A DNA stretch of 64,000 nucleotides from Caballeronia concitans (GTDB lineage Bacteria > Pseudomonadota > Gammaproteobacteria > Burkholderiales > Burkholderiaceae). The stretch is from positions 1 through 64,000 of the forward strand of contig NZ_FCNV02000001.1 of assembly GCF_001544615.1 (NCBI RefSeq), given 5' to 3'. Each line of letters begins with the position of its first letter. Positions within the stretch are counted from its first letter, which is position 1. A program made the position numbers and the translations under genes. The notes beneath the pieces were generated by a model, which saw only the letters and a list, made by a program, of their open reading frames with translations, had not been told where the DNA came from and did no database searches. Shown here one piece after another: positions 18,367 through 56,799 of the stretch.

Positions 18367-18625
18367 ACCCTTTCCGGCCTAGCCTAGCGAAGCGTTCCTT
18401 ATTTGGTCGTGGTTTACCCACGTAAGTCGACAGTCGGTGAAATTACTCACACGAGTAGTAGGAAGGCCGCACCTCAGTCCCGATCCTAGCGCTCTCGCTC
18501 GTGTTTACTACATCGCGCTCCCAGGCCGAACGGTCACGCCACCAAGATTGCCGGCGTAGCGCGATTACAGCTATGATTGACAATCAGGTGCCTTCGGCAA
18601 GTTCTTGTCAACAAAGCTTAGAAAA
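18367..18625 (+). other. Non-coding junction, likely left edge of a foreign segment
   Basis: After the terminator the base composition falls and no reading frame persists. Stop codons occur in all frames. ATTGACAATC near 18577 could be part of a promoter for the next gene but lacks a clear -10 partner. No tRNA, integrase or direct repeat was seen. Confidence 0.5.
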
Positions 18626-19786
18626 ATGACCAAGCATCACGACATCGATGAGAATTCTGAAGTTTTTGATTTTTCTCGTCATAAGCAAATCGCCATTGCC
18701 AAATATTTACCTTCCGTTGGCTTCCATGCTGATCTCGCTGCGACTGTTAAATTGATTACCCAAGAAGCATTGAAGCGGAGACAGATTCGCCCCCATTCTA
18801 TCGAGGCACGTGCCAAGGATCCGGAAAGTTTTGGCCGCAAAGCGGCGAAGCCATCAAAGATAGATCCGAGACGTCCAATGTATACCGATCCAGTCACTGA
18901 TATCACGGATAAAGCGGCGATACGCATCATCACCTTTTTTCCGCGGACGGTCCAACAGATCGATAAGATGCTCTTGGAAGAGTTTTTCGTTATTGAACAT
19001 GCGGTTAAGGGAGAGAGCCTTCTCGAAGAAGAGCGATTTGGCTATCAGAGCGTCCATTATTTGCTGAAGCTGAATGCTTCTCGGACTGCTCTACCTGAAT
19101 ATCAACGGTTCAGCGAGGCTGTTATCGAAGTTCAAGTTCGAACGATTCTCCAGCATACTTGGGCGGAGATCGAGCATGACATTCAATATAAGTCGTCATC
19201 GACGATTCCGCGCGATATTAAGCGTCGTTTCATGTCGCTTGCTGGACTGCTCGAGATAGCAGACCGAGAATTTCAAGCTATCCAAGATGCCGATCGCGAC
19301 CTAACGGAAAAAGCACAAACATTAATTTCGGCCGATGACGATCTCTCTACGGTTGAGATCACACCAAATTCACTCAGAACGTTCCTCGATAAGACGTTAG
19401 GGCCCGATGGGCGTATGTCGGATTTTTCATACGATTGGGAAACCCGAGTTTTGATGCGGTTGGGCTTTACCTCGCTAAACCAAGTAAAAGAGGTGCTTTC
19501 GAAGTATGACGATAATCAATTGTCCAGAATTGCTGAGGGAGGACGGCAAGGGCAATTAACGCGTTTGCAGCACGTGCTTCTTGCTGCTTTGGGTGAGAAG
19601 TTTATTGAACGCCATCCGTGGGCTCACGAGGATTGGTTTCAATCCAGACGGCGAAACATTTTAGAACGGTTCAGGGGGAGTAACATCCCAATCGGCGGTT
19701 ATGACCCGCAAGCCCACGAATCAATAGTCCAAAATATAGCGTCCACCGAAGAGTTAAATGGCGGTGCTAACGAGCCGGCGGACTAA
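18626..19786 (+). CDS. Lone RelA/SpoT-domain protein (alarmone-synthetase-like)
   Basis: The 386-residue protein has an N-terminal RelA/SpoT nucleotidyltransferase domain (about residues 45-200). Matching motifs are ARAKDPESFGRKA, DITDKAAIRIITFF, FGYQSVHYLLKL and EVQVRTILQHTWAEIEHD, the last containing the E-x-Q-x-R-T signature. No HD hydrolase, TGS or ACT domain is present. The C-terminal 190 residues are helical, have no cysteine, and match nothing I recognise, so the pseudo-zinc-finger of CapRel-type toxins is absent. Composition is clearly more AT-rich than its neighbours. ATG 18626 is used; a TTG at 18605 is in frame. It could be a small alarmone synthetase, a toxSAS toxin or a phage-sensing protein. 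Confidence 0.8.
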   Translation: MTKHHDIDENSEVFDFSRHKQIAIAKYLPSVGFHADLAATVKLITQEALKRRQIRPHSIEARAKDPESFGRKAAKPSKIDPRRPMYTDPVTDITDKAAIRIITFFPRTVQQIDKMLLEEFFVIEHAVKGESLLEEERFGYQSVHYLLKLNASRTALPEYQRFSEAVIEVQVRTILQHTWAEIEHDIQYKSSSTIPRDIKRRFMSLAGLLEIADREFQAIQDADRDLTEKAQTLISADDDLSTVEITPNSLRTFLDKTLGPDGRMSDFSYDWETRVLMRLGFTSLNQVKEVLSKYDDNQLSRIAEGGRQGQLTRLQHVLLAALGEKFIERHPWAHEDWFQSRRRNILERFRGSNIPIGGYDPQAHESIVQNIASTEELNGGANEPAD

Positions 19787-30060: not shown

Positions 30061-30100
30061 CTTGCGGCGCAGCATCGGCTGCGAACAAAATCTATGGGCG

Positions 30101-30128
30101 AAAAAAAGCCCGCCTAGGTTGGCGGGCT
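30101..30128 (-). terminator. Terminator of the receiver-protein gene
   Basis: AGCCCGCC (30107-30114) and GGCGGGCT (30121-30128) pair; on the minus strand the stem is followed by seven T. Confidence 0.88.
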
Positions 30129-30203
30129 GAATCCATATCAGTGGAGACATGGAGGAGACAGGACCACTATACCAAGGAATTTGGTGCGACGCAACATCCG
30201 GTC

Positions 30204-49956: not shown

Positions 49957-50085
49957 GTCGTAGGATGTCTTAACAGAAGGTATCGCGATTCCGGCCATCC
50001 GGAACAGGAGCGTTAACCCTTAAAGTGCCTCTGTGTGCCGCGCTCGCGCGATCATCTGTCGCTTCTCTTGTCATACGATGTCTTA
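49957..50085. promoter_or_regulatory. Paired operator-like 16-mers between garL and its regulator
   Basis: GTCGTAGGATGTCTTA (49957-49972) and GTCATACGATGTCTTA (50070-50085) share 14 of 16 bases and sit in the divergent gap, one near each gene. A relative, GTCTGACGACATCTTA, is at 47992-48007 before the transporter gene. Shared GTC...GA...CTTA bases make these candidate sites for the GntR-type regulator. Confidence 0.5.
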
Positions 50086-50105
50086 TATATCGCGTTGTCG
50101 CCGAA

Positions 50106-50134
50106 TTGACGATCCGCCTGCCGAACTTCATGAT
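50106..50134 (+). promoter_or_regulatory. Probable promoter of the GntR-type regulator gene
   Basis: TTGACG (50106-50111), a 17-base spacer and CATGAT (50129-50134) match sigma-70 boxes at 5 and 4 of 6 positions. It lies 20 bases after the operator-like 16-mer at 50070 and 85 bases before the start codon. Confidence 0.5.
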
Positions 50135-50219
50135 GGTTCATCAGACCTCGTTGTCAAAGCATGTATGCGTGGGCATCGAGGTCGTCCGACCTCAACTTTT
50201 CCCGAATTGCAGAACGAAA

Positions 50220-50924
50220 ATGGCCAGCCTCACCGATAAAGTCGTCGCCGCCCTCATCGAAGAGATCGAGCGCGGCGTGCTCCGCCCCGGCGACAAGATT
50301 CCGACCGAAGTCGCGTTGATGAAGCAGATGTCGGTGAGCCGGTCGGTGGTGCGCGAGGCGGTGTCGCGGCTTCAGGCGGCGAATGTCGTCGAGACGCGGC
50401 ATGGCATCGGCACGTTCATCCGCGCGATGGCGGATCGCGAATCGGTGCGGCTCAAGGACGCCGATCTGTCGAACTTGCTCGATGTGATGGCGATCATCGA
50501 ATTCCGGATCGATTTGGAAGGCGCGGCGGCCGCGCTCGCGGCGGGGCGCCGGACCGAGCAGCATCTGAAGCAGATTGCCGGGGCGCTCGATCGTTACGAA
50601 GAGCAGGTCGCCAATGGCAGCACCGATGTGCTCGAGCATGACGTCGAGTTTCACTTGCAGATCGCGCGGGCGAGCGGCAACCGGTATTTCTACGACGTGC
50701 TCAGCCAGATGGGACGCGCCGTGAGTCCGCGCACGCGGCTCGGCAAGGCGGAGATTGCGGAGCTGGATCAGATCGAACGGTTACGCAACGTGCTCAACGA
50801 ACACAAGGCGATCTATCAGGCGATCGTTCGCCAGGATGCCGACGATGCCCGCGCCGCGATGCGCATGCATTTGAGCAACAGCCGTGAAAGGCTGCGTCAG
50901 GCGCATGAGACTGCGGTGAACTGA
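50220..50924 (+). CDS. GntR-family (FadR/FCD) transcriptional regulator
   Basis: The 234-residue protein has an N-terminal winged helix (LRPGDKIPTEVALMKQMSVSRSVVREAVSRLQAANVVETRHGIGTF) and a C-terminal helical FCD domain (EFRIDLEGAAAALAAGR, HDVEFHLQIARASGN, EHKAIYQAI with metal-binding Asp/His residues). Its position, divergent from garL, makes it the likely regulator of the glucarate genes, sensing a sugar acid. ATG 50220 gives the usual short N-terminus. Confidence 0.92.
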   Translation: MASLTDKVVAALIEEIERGVLRPGDKIPTEVALMKQMSVSRSVVREAVSRLQAANVVETRHGIGTFIRAMADRESVRLKDADLSNLLDVMAIIEFRIDLEGAAAALAAGRRTEQHLKQIAGALDRYEEQVANGSTDVLEHDVEFHLQIARASGNRYFYDVLSQMGRAVSPRTRLGKAEIAELDQIERLRNVLNEHKAIYQAIVRQDADDARAAMRMHLSNSRERLRQAHETAVN

Positions 50925-51664
50925 ACTGCTCCGGTTTTGAGCGACGCTGCATGCGTCTCTAAGTAAACAAAAGGATTCGTATGTATACGTGGTAGTAGTT
51001 AACAAGCCTGCCACTTTTCAGTGGATAACCCGATTCGCGCGTTTCGCGTCAATGACTTGCGAAGTAAACAACTTCGGTATGAATCGGCGGATTGCGGATG
51101 GAAGCGAGGACAACTTTCGGGACTTTTTCGGAATCGCCGAGTTATGCAGAAAGCGCGAACAGTTTACGCGGCGGGGTTTGTACAGGGTTGTCCACAGGTA
51201 AACGCGGGGACGTGGCGGGAAAAGACTGTCCATCGCGCGTACCGAATAATTTCATTCACGCAAGTCGCGGCAGCGCGGCGCTTCTGCTAGTCCATCTTTC
51301 CCAACCCGACGTTACACAGCTAGGTGTCTGCCAGGACAGTGCCGAACTGAAGCCAACGAACGGCTTTCTTCGCCAAGCTGCGCTACCGGGACAAGGCCTT
51401 ACACAACGTGCCGCCACGCACGTAAGAAGCGCTCTGTCTCGCGTAGAACTTAAGAACGGTCAACGCTACATGCCCTGCATTCGTTGAGCGTGGGATATGA
51501 TCTCAGCACTATGTGAGGGCCAGGGAGCAACAGTGGGCCACCGCCGTCTGCACATATCTGTTGCTTCCTAGCGCAACTACGTGCAGACCGATCGCAGGCG
51601 ATCGTGAAGTAGTGAGCCATTTTTGGTTAGATAACCTAAATAATTTAAGCAGAAGAGTCGCAAT
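50925..51664 (+). other. Long region without a convincing gene, upstream of hamA
   Basis: About 740 bases. Short open frames exist on both strands, none with a ribosome site, domain or codon pattern I trust. GTGGATAAC (51020-51028) and TTGTCCACA (51187-51195) look like single DnaA boxes. The last 60 bases before hamA are AT-rich (TTAGATAACCTAAATAATTT) and probably contain its promoter. No transposase, integrase or att-like direct repeat was seen. Confidence 0.55.
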
Positions 51665-52504
51665 ATGGCGGGGCCCTTTTTCAAAATCGTGGTCAATGAT
51701 CTTGCGAGGACGCCAAGGCTTACGGGCATCTGTGCCGGTTATGAGCTGGGCGCATGGCGTGCCGACCAGCTCTCAAAACTCCTCTTTCAATCCCTACCAG
51801 ACTTCTGTCTCCGTTACTCAGAGTACCACAGCATCGACGCAGGAAACGCCGCTGAGCGACTAGGCGAGGCGGCGAGGAAGATCTATCAGACTGACGCGTA
51901 TCGAAATCGTGGTGAATTCGGCGAGTTAATATTGCACGTTGCGCTCAAGAAGGTGTTCGCAACCCTTCCGGCGATATCGAAGATCTACTTCAAAGACTCG
52001 AGTAATCATGCGGTCAAGGGCTTCGACGCCGTTCATGTCGTTCCTACTCAGGCCGGTCTCGAGCTGTGGCTCGGCGAGGTTAAGTTTTACCAGAACATTG
52101 GGAAAGCGATTACCGACGTTTGTCTCGAGCTTGATGCGCACTTCGAGCGTGAGTATTTGCGAGATGAGTTCTTGCTCATCAAAGGCAAGATTGACGAGAC
52201 GTGGCCTCATGCACAGAGATTGCAACAACTTCTTGACGAGACCGTTTCATTAGATGCTGTTTTTGATGTCGTGGTTGTACCTGTGTTGCTGACGTATAAC
52301 AGTCCAACGACAGCGCTTCACAACCAAAGTACTGACGAGTATCTACGTTTGCTAACGGCCGAACTTGAGAAACACTATCAAACATTCATCTCGAAGAACA
52401 ACCTGACACACATTGAAGTACGCCTCATTCTCTTCCCACTGAGCGAAAAAAAGCTCCTTGTCGATGCGCTCCATAAGCGGCTGGAGATTTACCAATGCCT
52501 TTAA
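51665..52504 (+). CDS. hamA: HamA, DUF1837 nuclease-like subunit of a Hachiman anti-phage system
   Basis: The 279-residue protein matches the DUF1837 family that defines HamA. A PD-(D/E)XK-type nuclease core is visible: Glu84/Glu87 in GEFGELILHVAL, Asp121 in KGFDAVHV and the E-x-K pair Glu138/Lys140 in LWLGEVKFY. In studied Hachiman systems HamA is a DNase held inactive by the helicase HamB until phage infection damages DNA. The gene overlaps hamB by 10 bases. Composition is AT-richer than the flanks. Confidence 0.9.
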   Translation: MAGPFFKIVVNDLARTPRLTGICAGYELGAWRADQLSKLLFQSLPDFCLRYSEYHSIDAGNAAERLGEAARKIYQTDAYRNRGEFGELILHVALKKVFATLPAISKIYFKDSSNHAVKGFDAVHVVPTQAGLELWLGEVKFYQNIGKAITDVCLELDAHFEREYLRDEFLLIKGKIDETWPHAQRLQQLLDETVSLDAVFDVVVVPVLLTYNSPTTALHNQSTDEYLRLLTAELEKHYQTFISKNNLTHIEVRLILFPLSEKKLLVDALHKRLEIYQCL

Positions 52505-54624
52505 GTTTCACCGAGATCCGCGCGAAAATAGCGACCGCCGCGCTAGCAGGAATATCAGACCCTTTCTCACTCTTGCAAGATGTCTCCAGTTTCCTTAACG
52601 TCTCGCGGGGCACGAGCGAGGAACATTTTGGACAGGAACTGGTTATTCGCTTACTCGACATCCGGCATATGTTCGAAGCGCATGCTGTCATCATAGACGC
52701 GCTCGTCCGTGAATCGGGTCTTTTTCCCTATCTTAATCCTGACCGACTTGGTATCGCCGATGCCCTTGCATACGAAATGCACCGTCCGGCTGCTAATTCA
52801 GACACAGTTTTTCACCGGGCACAGGCGCAAGTATTTGATCACATCATGTCCGGCAGGAGCGTAGTATTGAGCGCGCCGACGAGTTTCGGGAAAAGCCTAA
52901 TCATCGACGCAATCGTGCATTTGGGCCGTTTTCGCAACATCGTAATCGTGGTCCCGACGCTAGCACTGCTTGACGAAACGCGACGCCGCCTTGCAGCGCA
53001 CAGCACGAGATACAAAATCATTACCCACTCGTCACAAACTCCCGCTGATCGCAATATCTTCGTGCACACGCAGGAGCGAGTCATACAGAACGAGCACATA
53101 CAGAAAACCGATTTCTTCGTTATAGATGAGTTCTACAAGCTAAACCCGGGAGAAGATGACGGCCGCGCGCAAATGCTGAACTTAGCTTTCCATAAGCTTT
53201 CAAAACAGGCAAGTCAATTTTATATGCTCGGCCCCAACATTCAGAACATCCCGGACGGTTTCATCGAGAAGTTTCAATGCCGATTCATTCGCACCGACTT
53301 CAACACTGTCGCCTCCGAAATTCATCGCTTTGACGTGCAGGACGACACGACTCACGCTGTTGATCTGTGTACACGGCTGAAAGAACCCACGCTGATTTAC
53401 GTTCGATCGCCAGCACGAGCTCACGCGCTGGCTACTAAGTTGGCGAACGCGTTGGGCGACGTCGGAGCTGCCTCGGCAAAGGAAACCTCGCAGTGGGTCA
53501 AGGAGCGTTACCACTCCGACTGGTCGTTTGCCAAGGCACTCAGCGCTGGCATTGGGATACATCATGGCAAATTGCCGCGCTCGCTTACTCAGCTCATGGT
53601 GCGTCGCTTCAACGAAGGCGCAATACGCTTTTTGGTATGCACGTCAACTTTAATTGAAGGAGTCAACACGCGTGCTAAACATGTGATTGTCCTCGATAAC
53701 AAAATCAACAATAGAAAGTTCGACTACTTCACGTTTTCGAATATCAAGGGTCGCTCGGGTCGAATGCTGAAGCATTTTATTGGGCACGTCTATCTCTACC
53801 ATGAGCCTCCGCAGGCAGAATTGCCGTTGGTCGACATACCCGTGGTGACGCAATCAGACGACGCTAGCGACGCGTTGCTGATTCAGTTAGAACCGACCGA
53901 ACTCACCGCGTCATCATCGGGGCGGGTAAGACAGTACTATGAGGACCCCCTCCTGAGCCTTGAGGTCCTACGAGAGAATGCAGGAATCGACCCAGCGGCG
54001 CAACTCGCCGTAGCTCAAGCAATCGTCAGAGACCTTCGCCGGGCTCACACTATGCTTTCGTGGCGGGGCTTTCCATCGTTTGAGGAGTTGGCCTACCCGT
54101 GTGACTTGCTTTGGAAGCATTTCACCGAAGGTCGACCGCGGTCCGGCGCAACGACTGCTAGACACCTCGCCTTTCTGCTGCGGCGCCTATTGCGAGCCCG
54201 CAGGTTCAGCGATGCACTCGCGCTTTTCCACCGCGATGGAAGGCATGTCGACGACGCCATCGAAACGCTGCTCGACTTTCAGCGTCAATGGGCCGAGTTT
54301 CGAGCACCGAACCTTCTCTCTGCTGTCGACCGAATTCAACGCCACGTCTTCGAGAAATATGGACTGGCGGCTGGTAACTACGAAGCGTTCATCGGCAGAG
54401 TTGAGAACGTAGGCCGTCCTCCTGTAGTAAATGCGCTGGACGAGTACGGGCTTCCGACGCAAATAGGACAAGTGGTCTGGAAGGAACTTGGCCGGCCTGA
54501 CACGCTTGACGAGATGCTTGAGGCGCTGCGCTCGCGAGACCTCTATTACCTTGAACTTACCGGATTTGAGAACCGCTTCGTACAGGATGTCCGAAATAGC
54601 CTAATGCCTACCCGAGTCGCATAG
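52495..54624 (+). CDS. hamB: HamB, superfamily 2 helicase of a Hachiman anti-phage system
   Basis: The 709-residue protein has an N-terminal domain of about 110 residues, then an SF2 helicase: Walker A APTSFGKS (127-134), VVPTLALLDE (motif Ia), Walker B VIDEFYK (about 209-215), the second RecA lobe with HHGKLPRS and CTSTLIEGVNTRAKHVIV, and motif VI IKGRSGR. A 250-residue C-terminal region follows. It overlaps hamA by 10 bases, so the two are translationally coupled and likely form one complex. Length is in the lower range for HamB. Confidence 0.9.
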   Translation: MPLSFTEIRAKIATAALAGISDPFSLLQDVSSFLNVSRGTSEEHFGQELVIRLLDIRHMFEAHAVIIDALVRESGLFPYLNPDRLGIADALAYEMHRPAANSDTVFHRAQAQVFDHIMSGRSVVLSAPTSFGKSLIIDAIVHLGRFRNIVIVVPTLALLDETRRRLAAHSTRYKIITHSSQTPADRNIFVHTQERVIQNEHIQKTDFFVIDEFYKLNPGEDDGRAQMLNLAFHKLSKQASQFYMLGPNIQNIPDGFIEKFQCRFIRTDFNTVASEIHRFDVQDDTTHAVDLCTRLKEPTLIYVRSPARAHALATKLANALGDVGAASAKETSQWVKERYHSDWSFAKALSAGIGIHHGKLPRSLTQLMVRRFNEGAIRFLVCTSTLIEGVNTRAKHVIVLDNKINNRKFDYFTFSNIKGRSGRMLKHFIGHVYLYHEPPQAELPLVDIPVVTQSDDASDALLIQLEPTELTASSSGRVRQYYEDPLLSLEVLRENAGIDPAAQLAVAQAIVRDLRRAHTMLSWRGFPSFEELAYPCDLLWKHFTEGRPRSGATTARHLAFLLRRLLRARRFSDALALFHRDGRHVDDAIETLLDFQRQWAEFRAPNLLSAVDRIQRHVFEKYGLAAGNYEAFIGRVENVGRPPVVNALDEYGLPTQIGQVVWKELGRPDTLDEMLEALRSRDLYYLELTGFENRFVQDVRNSLMPTRVA

Positions 54625-54909
54625 GCGGAAAGGCTTGCCGGACAGCGTGCCGCTATACGATGCTTTCTAGACTTGATCGCGACTCTGATCGCTGATGCTA
54701 TCGCAGACTCTGTCGGGACTTTCTTTCCTAAGCGTTGGTTCAATGAAGCGTGCAGCTTGCGGCCGCTCATATAGCCGACCGCAAATTGCTGCAGTTTGGA
54801 CAGTTGCTTAAGACATGCTCCGTCCGCTTCAGGTAAAACTCCCGAAAACGATAAGTGATGGTATGAGGCGGTCACAAACAACAACAAAAACGGCAGTCCC
54901 TCCTCCTCC
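54625..54909. other. Non-coding gap between hamB and the 3' end of glmS
   Basis: These 285 bases separate convergent genes. No clear Rho-independent hairpin follows glmS, and a predicted 113-residue minus-strand frame overlapping hamB has no recognisable domain or ribosome site. The part next to glmS is where Tn7 normally inserts, but I find no terminal repeats of a Tn7-like element. Confidence 0.5.
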
Positions 54910-56727
54910 TCACTCCACCGTCACCGACTTAGCCAGATTCCGCGGCTTATCGACATCCGTCCCGCGCGCGCACGCCGTGTGATACGCGAGCAACTGCAGC
55001 GGCACCACGTGCAGAATCGGCGACAACGCCCCGTAGTGCTCCGGCATCCGGATCACATGAATGCCGTCTTCGCTGACGATGCGGGTATCCGCATCCGCGA
55101 ACACATACAGTTCGCCGCCGCGCGCCCGCACTTCCTGCATGTTCGACTTCAGCTTCTCCAGCAGCGTATCGTTCGGCGCGACGGTGACGACCGGCATCGC
55201 CTCCGTCACAAGGGCAAGCGGCCCATGCTTTAGTTCGCCCGCCGGATACGCCTCCGCGTGGATATACGAAATCTCCTTGAGCTTCAGCGCGCCTTCGAGC
55301 GCGATCGGATAATGCAGCCCGCGCCCGAGGAACAGCGCATTCTCCTTGCGCGCGAACTCTTCGGACCACGCGATGATCTGCGGCTCCAGCGCCAGCACGC
55401 TATTCAACGCCGCCGGCAAGTGACGCAACTGACCGAGATACGCCGCTTCCTGCTTCGCATCGACGCGGCCGCGCAATTTCGCCAGCGTCACCGCCAGCAC
55501 GAACAGGCCGACGAGCTGCGTCGTGAACGCCTTCGTCGATGCCACGCCGATCTCCGTTCCCGCATGCGTCAGGAACGCGAGTTCCGTCTGACGCACCATC
55601 GCGCTCGTCGCGACGTTGCACACGGCGAGCGTGTGCGCGTGACCGAGCGATTGCGCGTGCTTCAGCGCGGCGAGCGTATCGGCGGTTTCGCCCGACTGCG
55701 AAATGACGACGACCAGCGCCTTCGGATTCGGCACCGACTCGCGATACCGATACTCGCTCGCAATTTCCACCTGCGTCGGAATCTTCGCGATGGATTCGAG
55801 CCAATACTTCGCCGTCAGCCCCGAGTAATAGCTCGTGCCGCACGCGAGAATCAGCAGGCTGTCGATGTCCGCGAACACGTCCTTCGCGTTCTCGCCGAAG
55901 AGGTTGGCGGTGAATTCATCGCCTTGCGGAATCGTGTCGGTGATCGCGCGCGGCTGCTCGAAGATTTCCTTCTGCATGAAATGACGATACGGCCCGAGTT
56001 CCACCGCGCCGCCGTACGCCGCCACCACGCGCACTTCGCGCTCGGCGGGCAAGCCCTGACGATCCACGATCTTCACGCCGTCCAGCGCGATTTCGACGAC
56101 ATCGCCCTCTTCGAGGAACGCGAAGCGATCGGTGCTGCCGGCGAGCGCGAGGGCATCGGATGCGAGGAAGTTTTCGCCCTCGCCCACGCCCACGACGAGC
56201 GGCGAACCCTGGCGCGCGCCCACCACCGTATGCGGCTGATCCTTATGAATGACCGCGATCGCATATGCGCCGTGCAGCAGCTTGACGGCTTCGCGCACGG
56301 TCTGGAACAGATCGCCGCGATACATGCTGTGAATCAGATGCGCGATGACCTCGGTGTCCGTCTGCGACACGAACTCGTAGCCCTTGTCGCGCAGCATCGT
56401 GCGCAGCGACTCGTAGTTCTCGATGATGCCGTTGTGCACGAGCGCGACCGTATCGCGCGAAAAGATGGGATGCGCGTTGTCGGTGACGGGCGCGCCGTGC
56501 GTGGCCCATCGCGTGTGCGCGATGCCCGTCATGCCGGCAAGGCTCGATTCCTTCACTTGCGCGTCGAGATCCGACACCCGCGCGACGCTGCGCGCGCGGC
56601 GCGGCTCGCCATGACTCAGCACGGCGACGCCGCACGAGTCGTAGCCGCGATATTCCAGCCGCCGCAAACCTTCGACGAGCACCGGGACGATGTTACGTTG
56701 CGCTACCGCGCCGACAATTCCGCACAT
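54910..56727 (-). CDS. glmS: Glutamine-fructose-6-phosphate aminotransferase
   Basis: GlmS makes glucosamine-6-phosphate, the entry to peptidoglycan and LPS amino sugars. The 605-residue protein starts [12 protein letters not shown], exposing the catalytic Cys2 of the glutaminase domain. Two SIS sugar-isomerase domains follow ([25 protein letters not shown] and [20 protein letters not shown]), and it ends in the conserved [19 protein letters not shown] precedes the ATG. It is downstream of glmU on the same strand. Confidence 0.97.
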
Positions 56728-56799
56728 GGCGTTATCCTTTGATATCCGAATCAGACGCACCTATCGAAAGGCCGCGCGTTCAGCACGGCCCAGCGCGCT

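Follow-up and report, generated by a model that had tools for sequence, protein, structure and literature searches.

Two overlapping genes, poorer in G+C than their neighbours, lie behind glmS in the 64,000-nucleotide stretch of Caballeronia concitans DNA analyzed here (the window), and had been read in the original prediction as a complete Hachiman-type pair, a HamA nuclease followed by a HamB helicase. Does the pair belong to this family, what sort of site does it occupy, and where does it stand relative to AbpAB of E. coli K-12, which provides its closest relatives of known structure?

The hamA-hamB pair

The two genes, as they appear in the list of open reading frames, are:

51665..52504, plus strand: hamA, 279 aa, DUF1837/HamA nuclease with D121, E138-x-K140 and E84/E87 intact
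52495..54624, plus strand: hamB, 709 aa, compact Ski2-like SF2 helicase with Walker A, Walker B and motif VI intact

Both frames start and end where the original prediction had placed them, and overlap by 10 bases (52495-52504) as it described. A GGAG, seen by eye eight bases ahead of the hamB ATG, resides within hamA, a placement that fits translational coupling of the two genes.

HamA matches the Pfam HamA family PF08878 (4.3e-57, 194 bits against a cut-off of 25) and, as top-ranked profile and over nearly its full length, the HamA profile of PADLOC (7.6e-115, 381 bits). No domain besides PF08878 was found by Pfam at E <= 1, and NCBIfam returned no HamA match. HamB is matched at residues 18-700 by the PADLOC HamB profile, again top-ranked (7.9e-236, 783 bits); among Pfam domains DEAD and Helicase_C score above and ResIII below cut-off, and the only NCBIfam matches, led by Hel308-type helicases, fall far below curated cut-offs. 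The matches to PF08878 and to the PADLOC HamA and HamB profiles lie far beyond chance, and no other family does better in the profile searches. On these grounds the pair is classed as a member of the Hachiman family, and the original reading holds on every main point. A scripted check located in HamA the residues singled out originally, E84, E87, D121, E138 and K140, the D-(G)ExK nuclease motif being made up by D121, E138 and K140, and in HamB the motifs APTSFGKS (from residue 127), VIDEFYK (from 209) and GRSGR (from 419). R82, G83, E84, G86, E87, D121, E138 and K140 are invariant in an alignment of 30 unfused HamA, as are in 31 compact HamB T129/S130/G132/K133 of Walker A, D211/E212 of Walker B and G419/R420/G422/R423 of motif VI. 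In the wider set of 86 HamA analyzed below, which includes loci from the best 80 of 212, two live members (L140 and L153) carry L at position 84, and E84 is therefore less strict than D121, E138 and K140. On sequence grounds the pair may be called complete, and is possibly active.

Among solved structures, the best matches of the pair are AbpB and AbpA. The best relative of HamB is by far E. coli AbpB (8zue_B, 729 aa; phmmer 8.5e-103), followed by an 853-aa chain deposited as DNA polymerase theta (4.4e-21); the 1174-aa HamB chain of 8vx9, which we infer to be the ECOR31 protein of PMC12278908, is matched over a short stretch only (phmmer 7.3e-6). Searched as a single sequence, HamA retrieved nothing from PDB at E <= 1, and the profile of the 30 unfused HamA one chain, AbpA of 8zue, matched on its C-terminal HamA domain (3.2e-19); no other solved HamA was found by this profile at E <= 1.

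The PF08878 match in the window is the sole one in the 6.17-Mb assembly (47 contigs). Within the genus, HamA was found in two of 58 genomes; in a sample of 398 genomes of the phylum, PF08878 occurs in 16. The present genome is included in both counts. The nearest sequences found are those of G033, of the same genus (66% amino acid identity for both proteins), and Pandoraea pneumonica (63% for HamA, 61% for HamB). Adjoining or overlapping hamA and hamB genes, in this order, recur in relatives; G033 (L050) and Pandoraea (L086) have the very same 10-base overlap, and HamA is unfused and live in both, as in the window. Nucleotide identity to the two is about 59-64% and dN 0.25-0.35; dS was returned as -1, hence no dN/dS ratio is given. 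As we take this value as saturation, and both genes are intact despite the divergence, hamA and hamB are in our reading under purifying selection.

HamA matches were found in eight plasmid records, the best places all being below 60% identity, and in two phage records. None of the 35 plasmid records matching window 51000-55000 covers 80% of it, and the ten of them listed cover the glmS end only; no plasmid or phage source of the pair emerged from the records searched. No paper joining Hachiman with Caballeronia, or with Paraburkholderia and defense, was found in the open-licence literature.

The insertion site behind glmS

The DNA which surrounds the pair is organized as follows:

50025..50924, plus strand: GntR-like regulator gene, core gene flanking the insert on the side away from glmS (named by eye)
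51209..54909, no strand: inserted segment of about 3.7 kb, with hamA, hamB and non-coding flanks, absent from the congener G012
54910..56760, minus strand: glmS, core gene with the insert at its 3' end (named by eye)

Homology to the corresponding locus of G012 (L069) stops in blastn at position 51208 and resumes at 54910, about 3.7 kb of the window thus facing about 75 bp, which include a hairpin resembling, by eye, a glmS terminator. The spacing between the GntR-like gene and glmS matches is accordingly 373 bp in G012 vs. 3992 bp in the window. A 451-base query from the 3' end of glmS was matched, in some cases partially, in all 58 genomes of the genus, and a similar counterpart of the GntR-like gene flanks glmS in many relatives. 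The AT-richness pointed out originally is real, G+C being 0.502 in hamA and 0.535 in hamB vs. 0.61-0.67 in six flanking genes, and GC3 0.58-0.59 vs. 0.76-0.88. We are confident that the pair is a Hachiman system of the compact-helicase subtype, made up of two genes and acquired by horizontal transfer.

A Tn7-like transposon, or an island integrating at glmS, was considered for the present locus and rejected: no integrase or transposase was seen by eye in the reading frames of 51209-54909, no second glmS end was found in the window with up to three mismatches allowed, and no terminal repeat was convincing, only short repeats of low identity being detected. The locus is possibly a decayed mobile element.

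The glmS region was monitored in 40 of the 57 other genomes of the genus. The nearest of five core neighbours lies about 0.37-0.6 kb from glmS in 13 of the 40 loci (in L067, L068, L072 and L078 it is an HpcH-like gene, and the GntR match was not found) and 1.1-5.6 kb away in eight; none of the five was found in the stretch fetched from the remaining 19, where the neighbourhood therefore differs or the insert is longer. Twenty reading frames located within about 6.5 kb behind glmS in ten of the 40 loci, a non-random sample selected by eye on the basis of length and low G+C, gave matches of the defence or toxin-antitoxin type in eight loci: Lamassu LmuA/LmuB and an RnlA-type toxin in G047, IetA in G002, an LmuA/Cap4 fragment and RES in G041, HipA in G006, Xre-RES in G020, DarT and a UvrD-like helicase (GajB model, 2.4e-22) in G011, PDC-S11 in G017, and a weak PDC-M04A match (6.1e-9) in G052. 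The reading frames tested in G015 and G021 had no such match. The region behind glmS is thus variable in this genus, and often hosts defence or toxin-antitoxin genes. None of the literature titles found on glmS together with attTn7, defence islands or integration hotspots concerned this genus. The copy of the pair in G033 resides elsewhere, at 2.88 Mb vs. 3.78 Mb for the best-matching glmS on the same contig.

Additional short copies of the 3' end of glmS were spotted in congeners (G021:C35:50751-50792, G037:C2:1371104-1371154, G009:C1:489769-489825), one of them about 140 bp from glmS itself, and possibly are leftovers of elements integrating there. The 50958-51208 interval, between the GntR-like gene and the insert, is about 72-87% conserved in several congeners; nothing in Rfam matches it at gathering score, and it holds sequences which by eye resemble DnaA boxes. 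Elsewhere in the window, a lone gene of low G+C (18605-19786), set between indolepyruvate-ferredoxin-oxidoreductase-like and malic-enzyme-like genes (named by eye), has a RelA_SpoT domain (Pfam 9.7e-17) and matches PADLOC PDC-S33 (6.2e-10), and is possibly a toxin or defence gene of the alarmone type. The sole Rfam match of the window is a Betaproteobacteria_toxic_sRNA (30100-30160, minus strand, 70.6 bits), and no tRNA was found in the tRNA search.

Live and dead HamA on the compact-helicase branch

Contigs were scanned with an alignment of eight HamB, and the best 80 of 212 confirmed loci, a choice biased to close relatives, were taken. With the window, E. coli AbpAB, G033 and five loci from the phylum, they supplied a set of 86 HamA of at least 250 aa, all partnered with compact helicases (about 700 aa). 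Left out of the residue count were L051, L052, L055, L057 and L058 (long-helicase or split type), L061-L065 and L143 (no HamA profile match) and L132 (a 73-aa fragment only); the counts include the duplicates or near-duplicates L053/L096, L054/L116, L056/L121 and L155/L156. In this set, drawn from the best 80 of 212 loci, D121, E138 and K140 are retained in all 72 HamA with N-terminal extensions of up to 149 residues, and all three are replaced in the 14 with extensions of at least 216. Pfam detected a Cap4 nuclease in five and a trypsin domain in two of seven such dead HamA, and HamA only in three live proteins with longer N-termini. The association of fusion with a dead HamA has already been reported for Hachiman fusions and AbpAB, in passages of PMC12799240 and PMC12278908; the split seen here repeats the published pattern on one branch and is not new. 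By its residues the window HamA counts as a 'live nuclease', on the branch to which AbpAB and the protease-HamA fusions also belong.

The helicases were arranged in a quick tree of 85 rows, without bootstrap, which draws on the same best 80 of 212 loci; duplicates or near-duplicates (L096, L116, L121, L156), rows L051, L052, L061-L063 and L065, and three loci in which no HamB reading frame of at least 590 aa was recovered (L114, L165, L064) were left out. AbpAB-type helicases form a set of 12 rows (SH-aLRT 99) amid unfused pairs, 11 with a dead HamA and one with no HamA recovered. Helicases of the trypsin-type fusions stand apart as a pair (SH-aLRT 100). The window HamB clusters, with equal support (SH-aLRT 100), with those of G033 and Pandoraea pneumonica. 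The deep order is unsure because of long end branches (2.18 for AbpB, 3.5-5.1 for outgroups). Two changes to fused, dead HamA are needed on the 85-row tree, and the starred branches force two; a single clade of dead sites is not rejected by the AU test on a hand-chosen subset of 47 rows (p-AU 0.463). Neither one nor two origins is claimed.

We lean slightly towards regarding the window pair as the live, unfused state ancestral to the AbpAB type, from which a Cap4 or protease domain was gained and the HamA site later lost. In this ancestral-state reading, we propose, the dead HamA would be kept only as the docking and release part of the helicase. Passages of PMC12278908 call it enigmatic why AbpAB keeps a dead HamA; if the ancestral-state reading is true, compact HamAB, on the very branch which holds AbpAB, would provide a direct control on this point.

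That the pair might belong with AbpAB and not with Hachiman proper, having the same type of helicase and an AbpAB-like working, is suggested by the structural matches, AbpB being the closest solved relative of HamB and AbpA the one PDB match of the HamA profile, and by the position of AbpAB-type helicases inside the compact HamB tree. The domain content contradicts this membership: AbpA combines a Cap4 nuclease (1e-55) with a HamA domain devoid of D/E/K, whereas the window HamA has no Cap4 and an intact site, and the pair branches with other unfused pairs, apart from AbpAB. We consider this alternative very improbable. Even less credible is a housekeeping nuclease-helicase devoted to DNA repair rather than defence. 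HamB does match Hel308 and other Ski2-like helicases, yet less well than HamB and AbpB; the occurrence is patchy in both genus and phylum (2/58 and 16/398 genomes), G012 lacks the pair, and the stretch which hosts the G033 copy has reverse-transcriptase, WYL and PDC-S26 matches.

A silent remnant, in which coding-intact Hachiman genes are unexpressed or non-functional, would be compatible with the family assignment, and is an unlikely though less remote alternative. A crude scan of 50800-55100 for sigma-70 consensus promoters found no promoter-like site, vs. a mean of 2.1 in shuffled sequences; the hairpin resembling the glmS terminator in G012 was not seen by eye in the window, no terminator-like site was found on the minus strand between hamB and glmS, and the codon usage of hamA and hamB is unlike that of neighbouring genes. 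Against silence, both frames are open, catalytic residues are retained, and the same layout is kept in relatives at 61-66% amino acid identity. An inverted repeat noticed by eye 28 bp before the hamA start (GGTTA-GA-TAACC, 51625-51636) is a possible operator.

Proposed working and comparison with known systems

By analogy with published relatives, the window pair is most likely an abortive defence that senses DNA integrity. HamA and HamB would most likely form a complex, in which HamB, acting as a Ski2-like 3'-5' DNA helicase, would survey DNA and restrain HamA, a nuclease of the PD-(D/E)xK type. Broken or replicating phage DNA would load into HamB, and ATP hydrolysis would then activate HamA; degradation of both phage and host DNA would kill the cell and block phage spread. 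The analysis itself establishes family membership, the order and overlap of the genes, intact catalytic residues, lineage, and where the site has or lacks the pair. Complex formation, DNA sensing, activation of HamA by DNA damage or phage replication intermediates, nuclease action and abortive outcome are all modelled on published relatives, ECOR31 HamAB (passages of PMC12278908) and AbpAB (passages of PMC10732053). Details such as the RecA2 loop of PMC12278908 may differ in the compact HamB, which falls short of the 1174-aa chain by about 460 residues, and for the same reason the entire compact branch may be mechanistically unlike the long-HamB type.

The general biology of such systems is already in print. 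The locus adds a clean, intact-looking compact Hachiman for a Burkholderiaceae genome. Its extra value is modest: it gives AbpAB a counterpart with a live nuclease, and is one of the occupants of the variable region beside glmS.

With Hachiman of ECOR31, as described in passages of PMC12278908, the pair shares the two-gene make-up, a DUF1837 nuclease HamA with D-E-x-K, and a Ski2-like HamB. The HamB chain of 8vx9 is however longer, at 1174 aa vs. 709 aa in the window, and its weak similarity is confined to a short part of the helicase. The HamMAB and protease-HamA fusions of PMC12799240 are represented on the same compact branch by the helicases of L059 and L147, but carry a trypsin-like domain fused to a HamA without D/E/K residues, a fusion not found in the window HamA (Pfam, E <= 1); according to passages of PMC12799240, HamMAB also has a separate pro-nuclease, HamM. 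AbpAB of E. coli K-12 is taken as a Hachiman variant in passages of PMC12278908, and as not a direct Hachiman equivalent in those of PMC10732053. It shares with the window pair a compact helicase (709 aa in the window, 729 in AbpB, with 33% identity over 690 aa) and a HamA-like domain in the helicase partner. In contrast, AbpA features an N-terminal Cap4 nuclease (PF14130, 1e-55) absent from the window HamA, and its HamA domain, which reads LENVH and GFSEL at the columns of the catalytic residues, lacks the D/E/K that the window protein retains.
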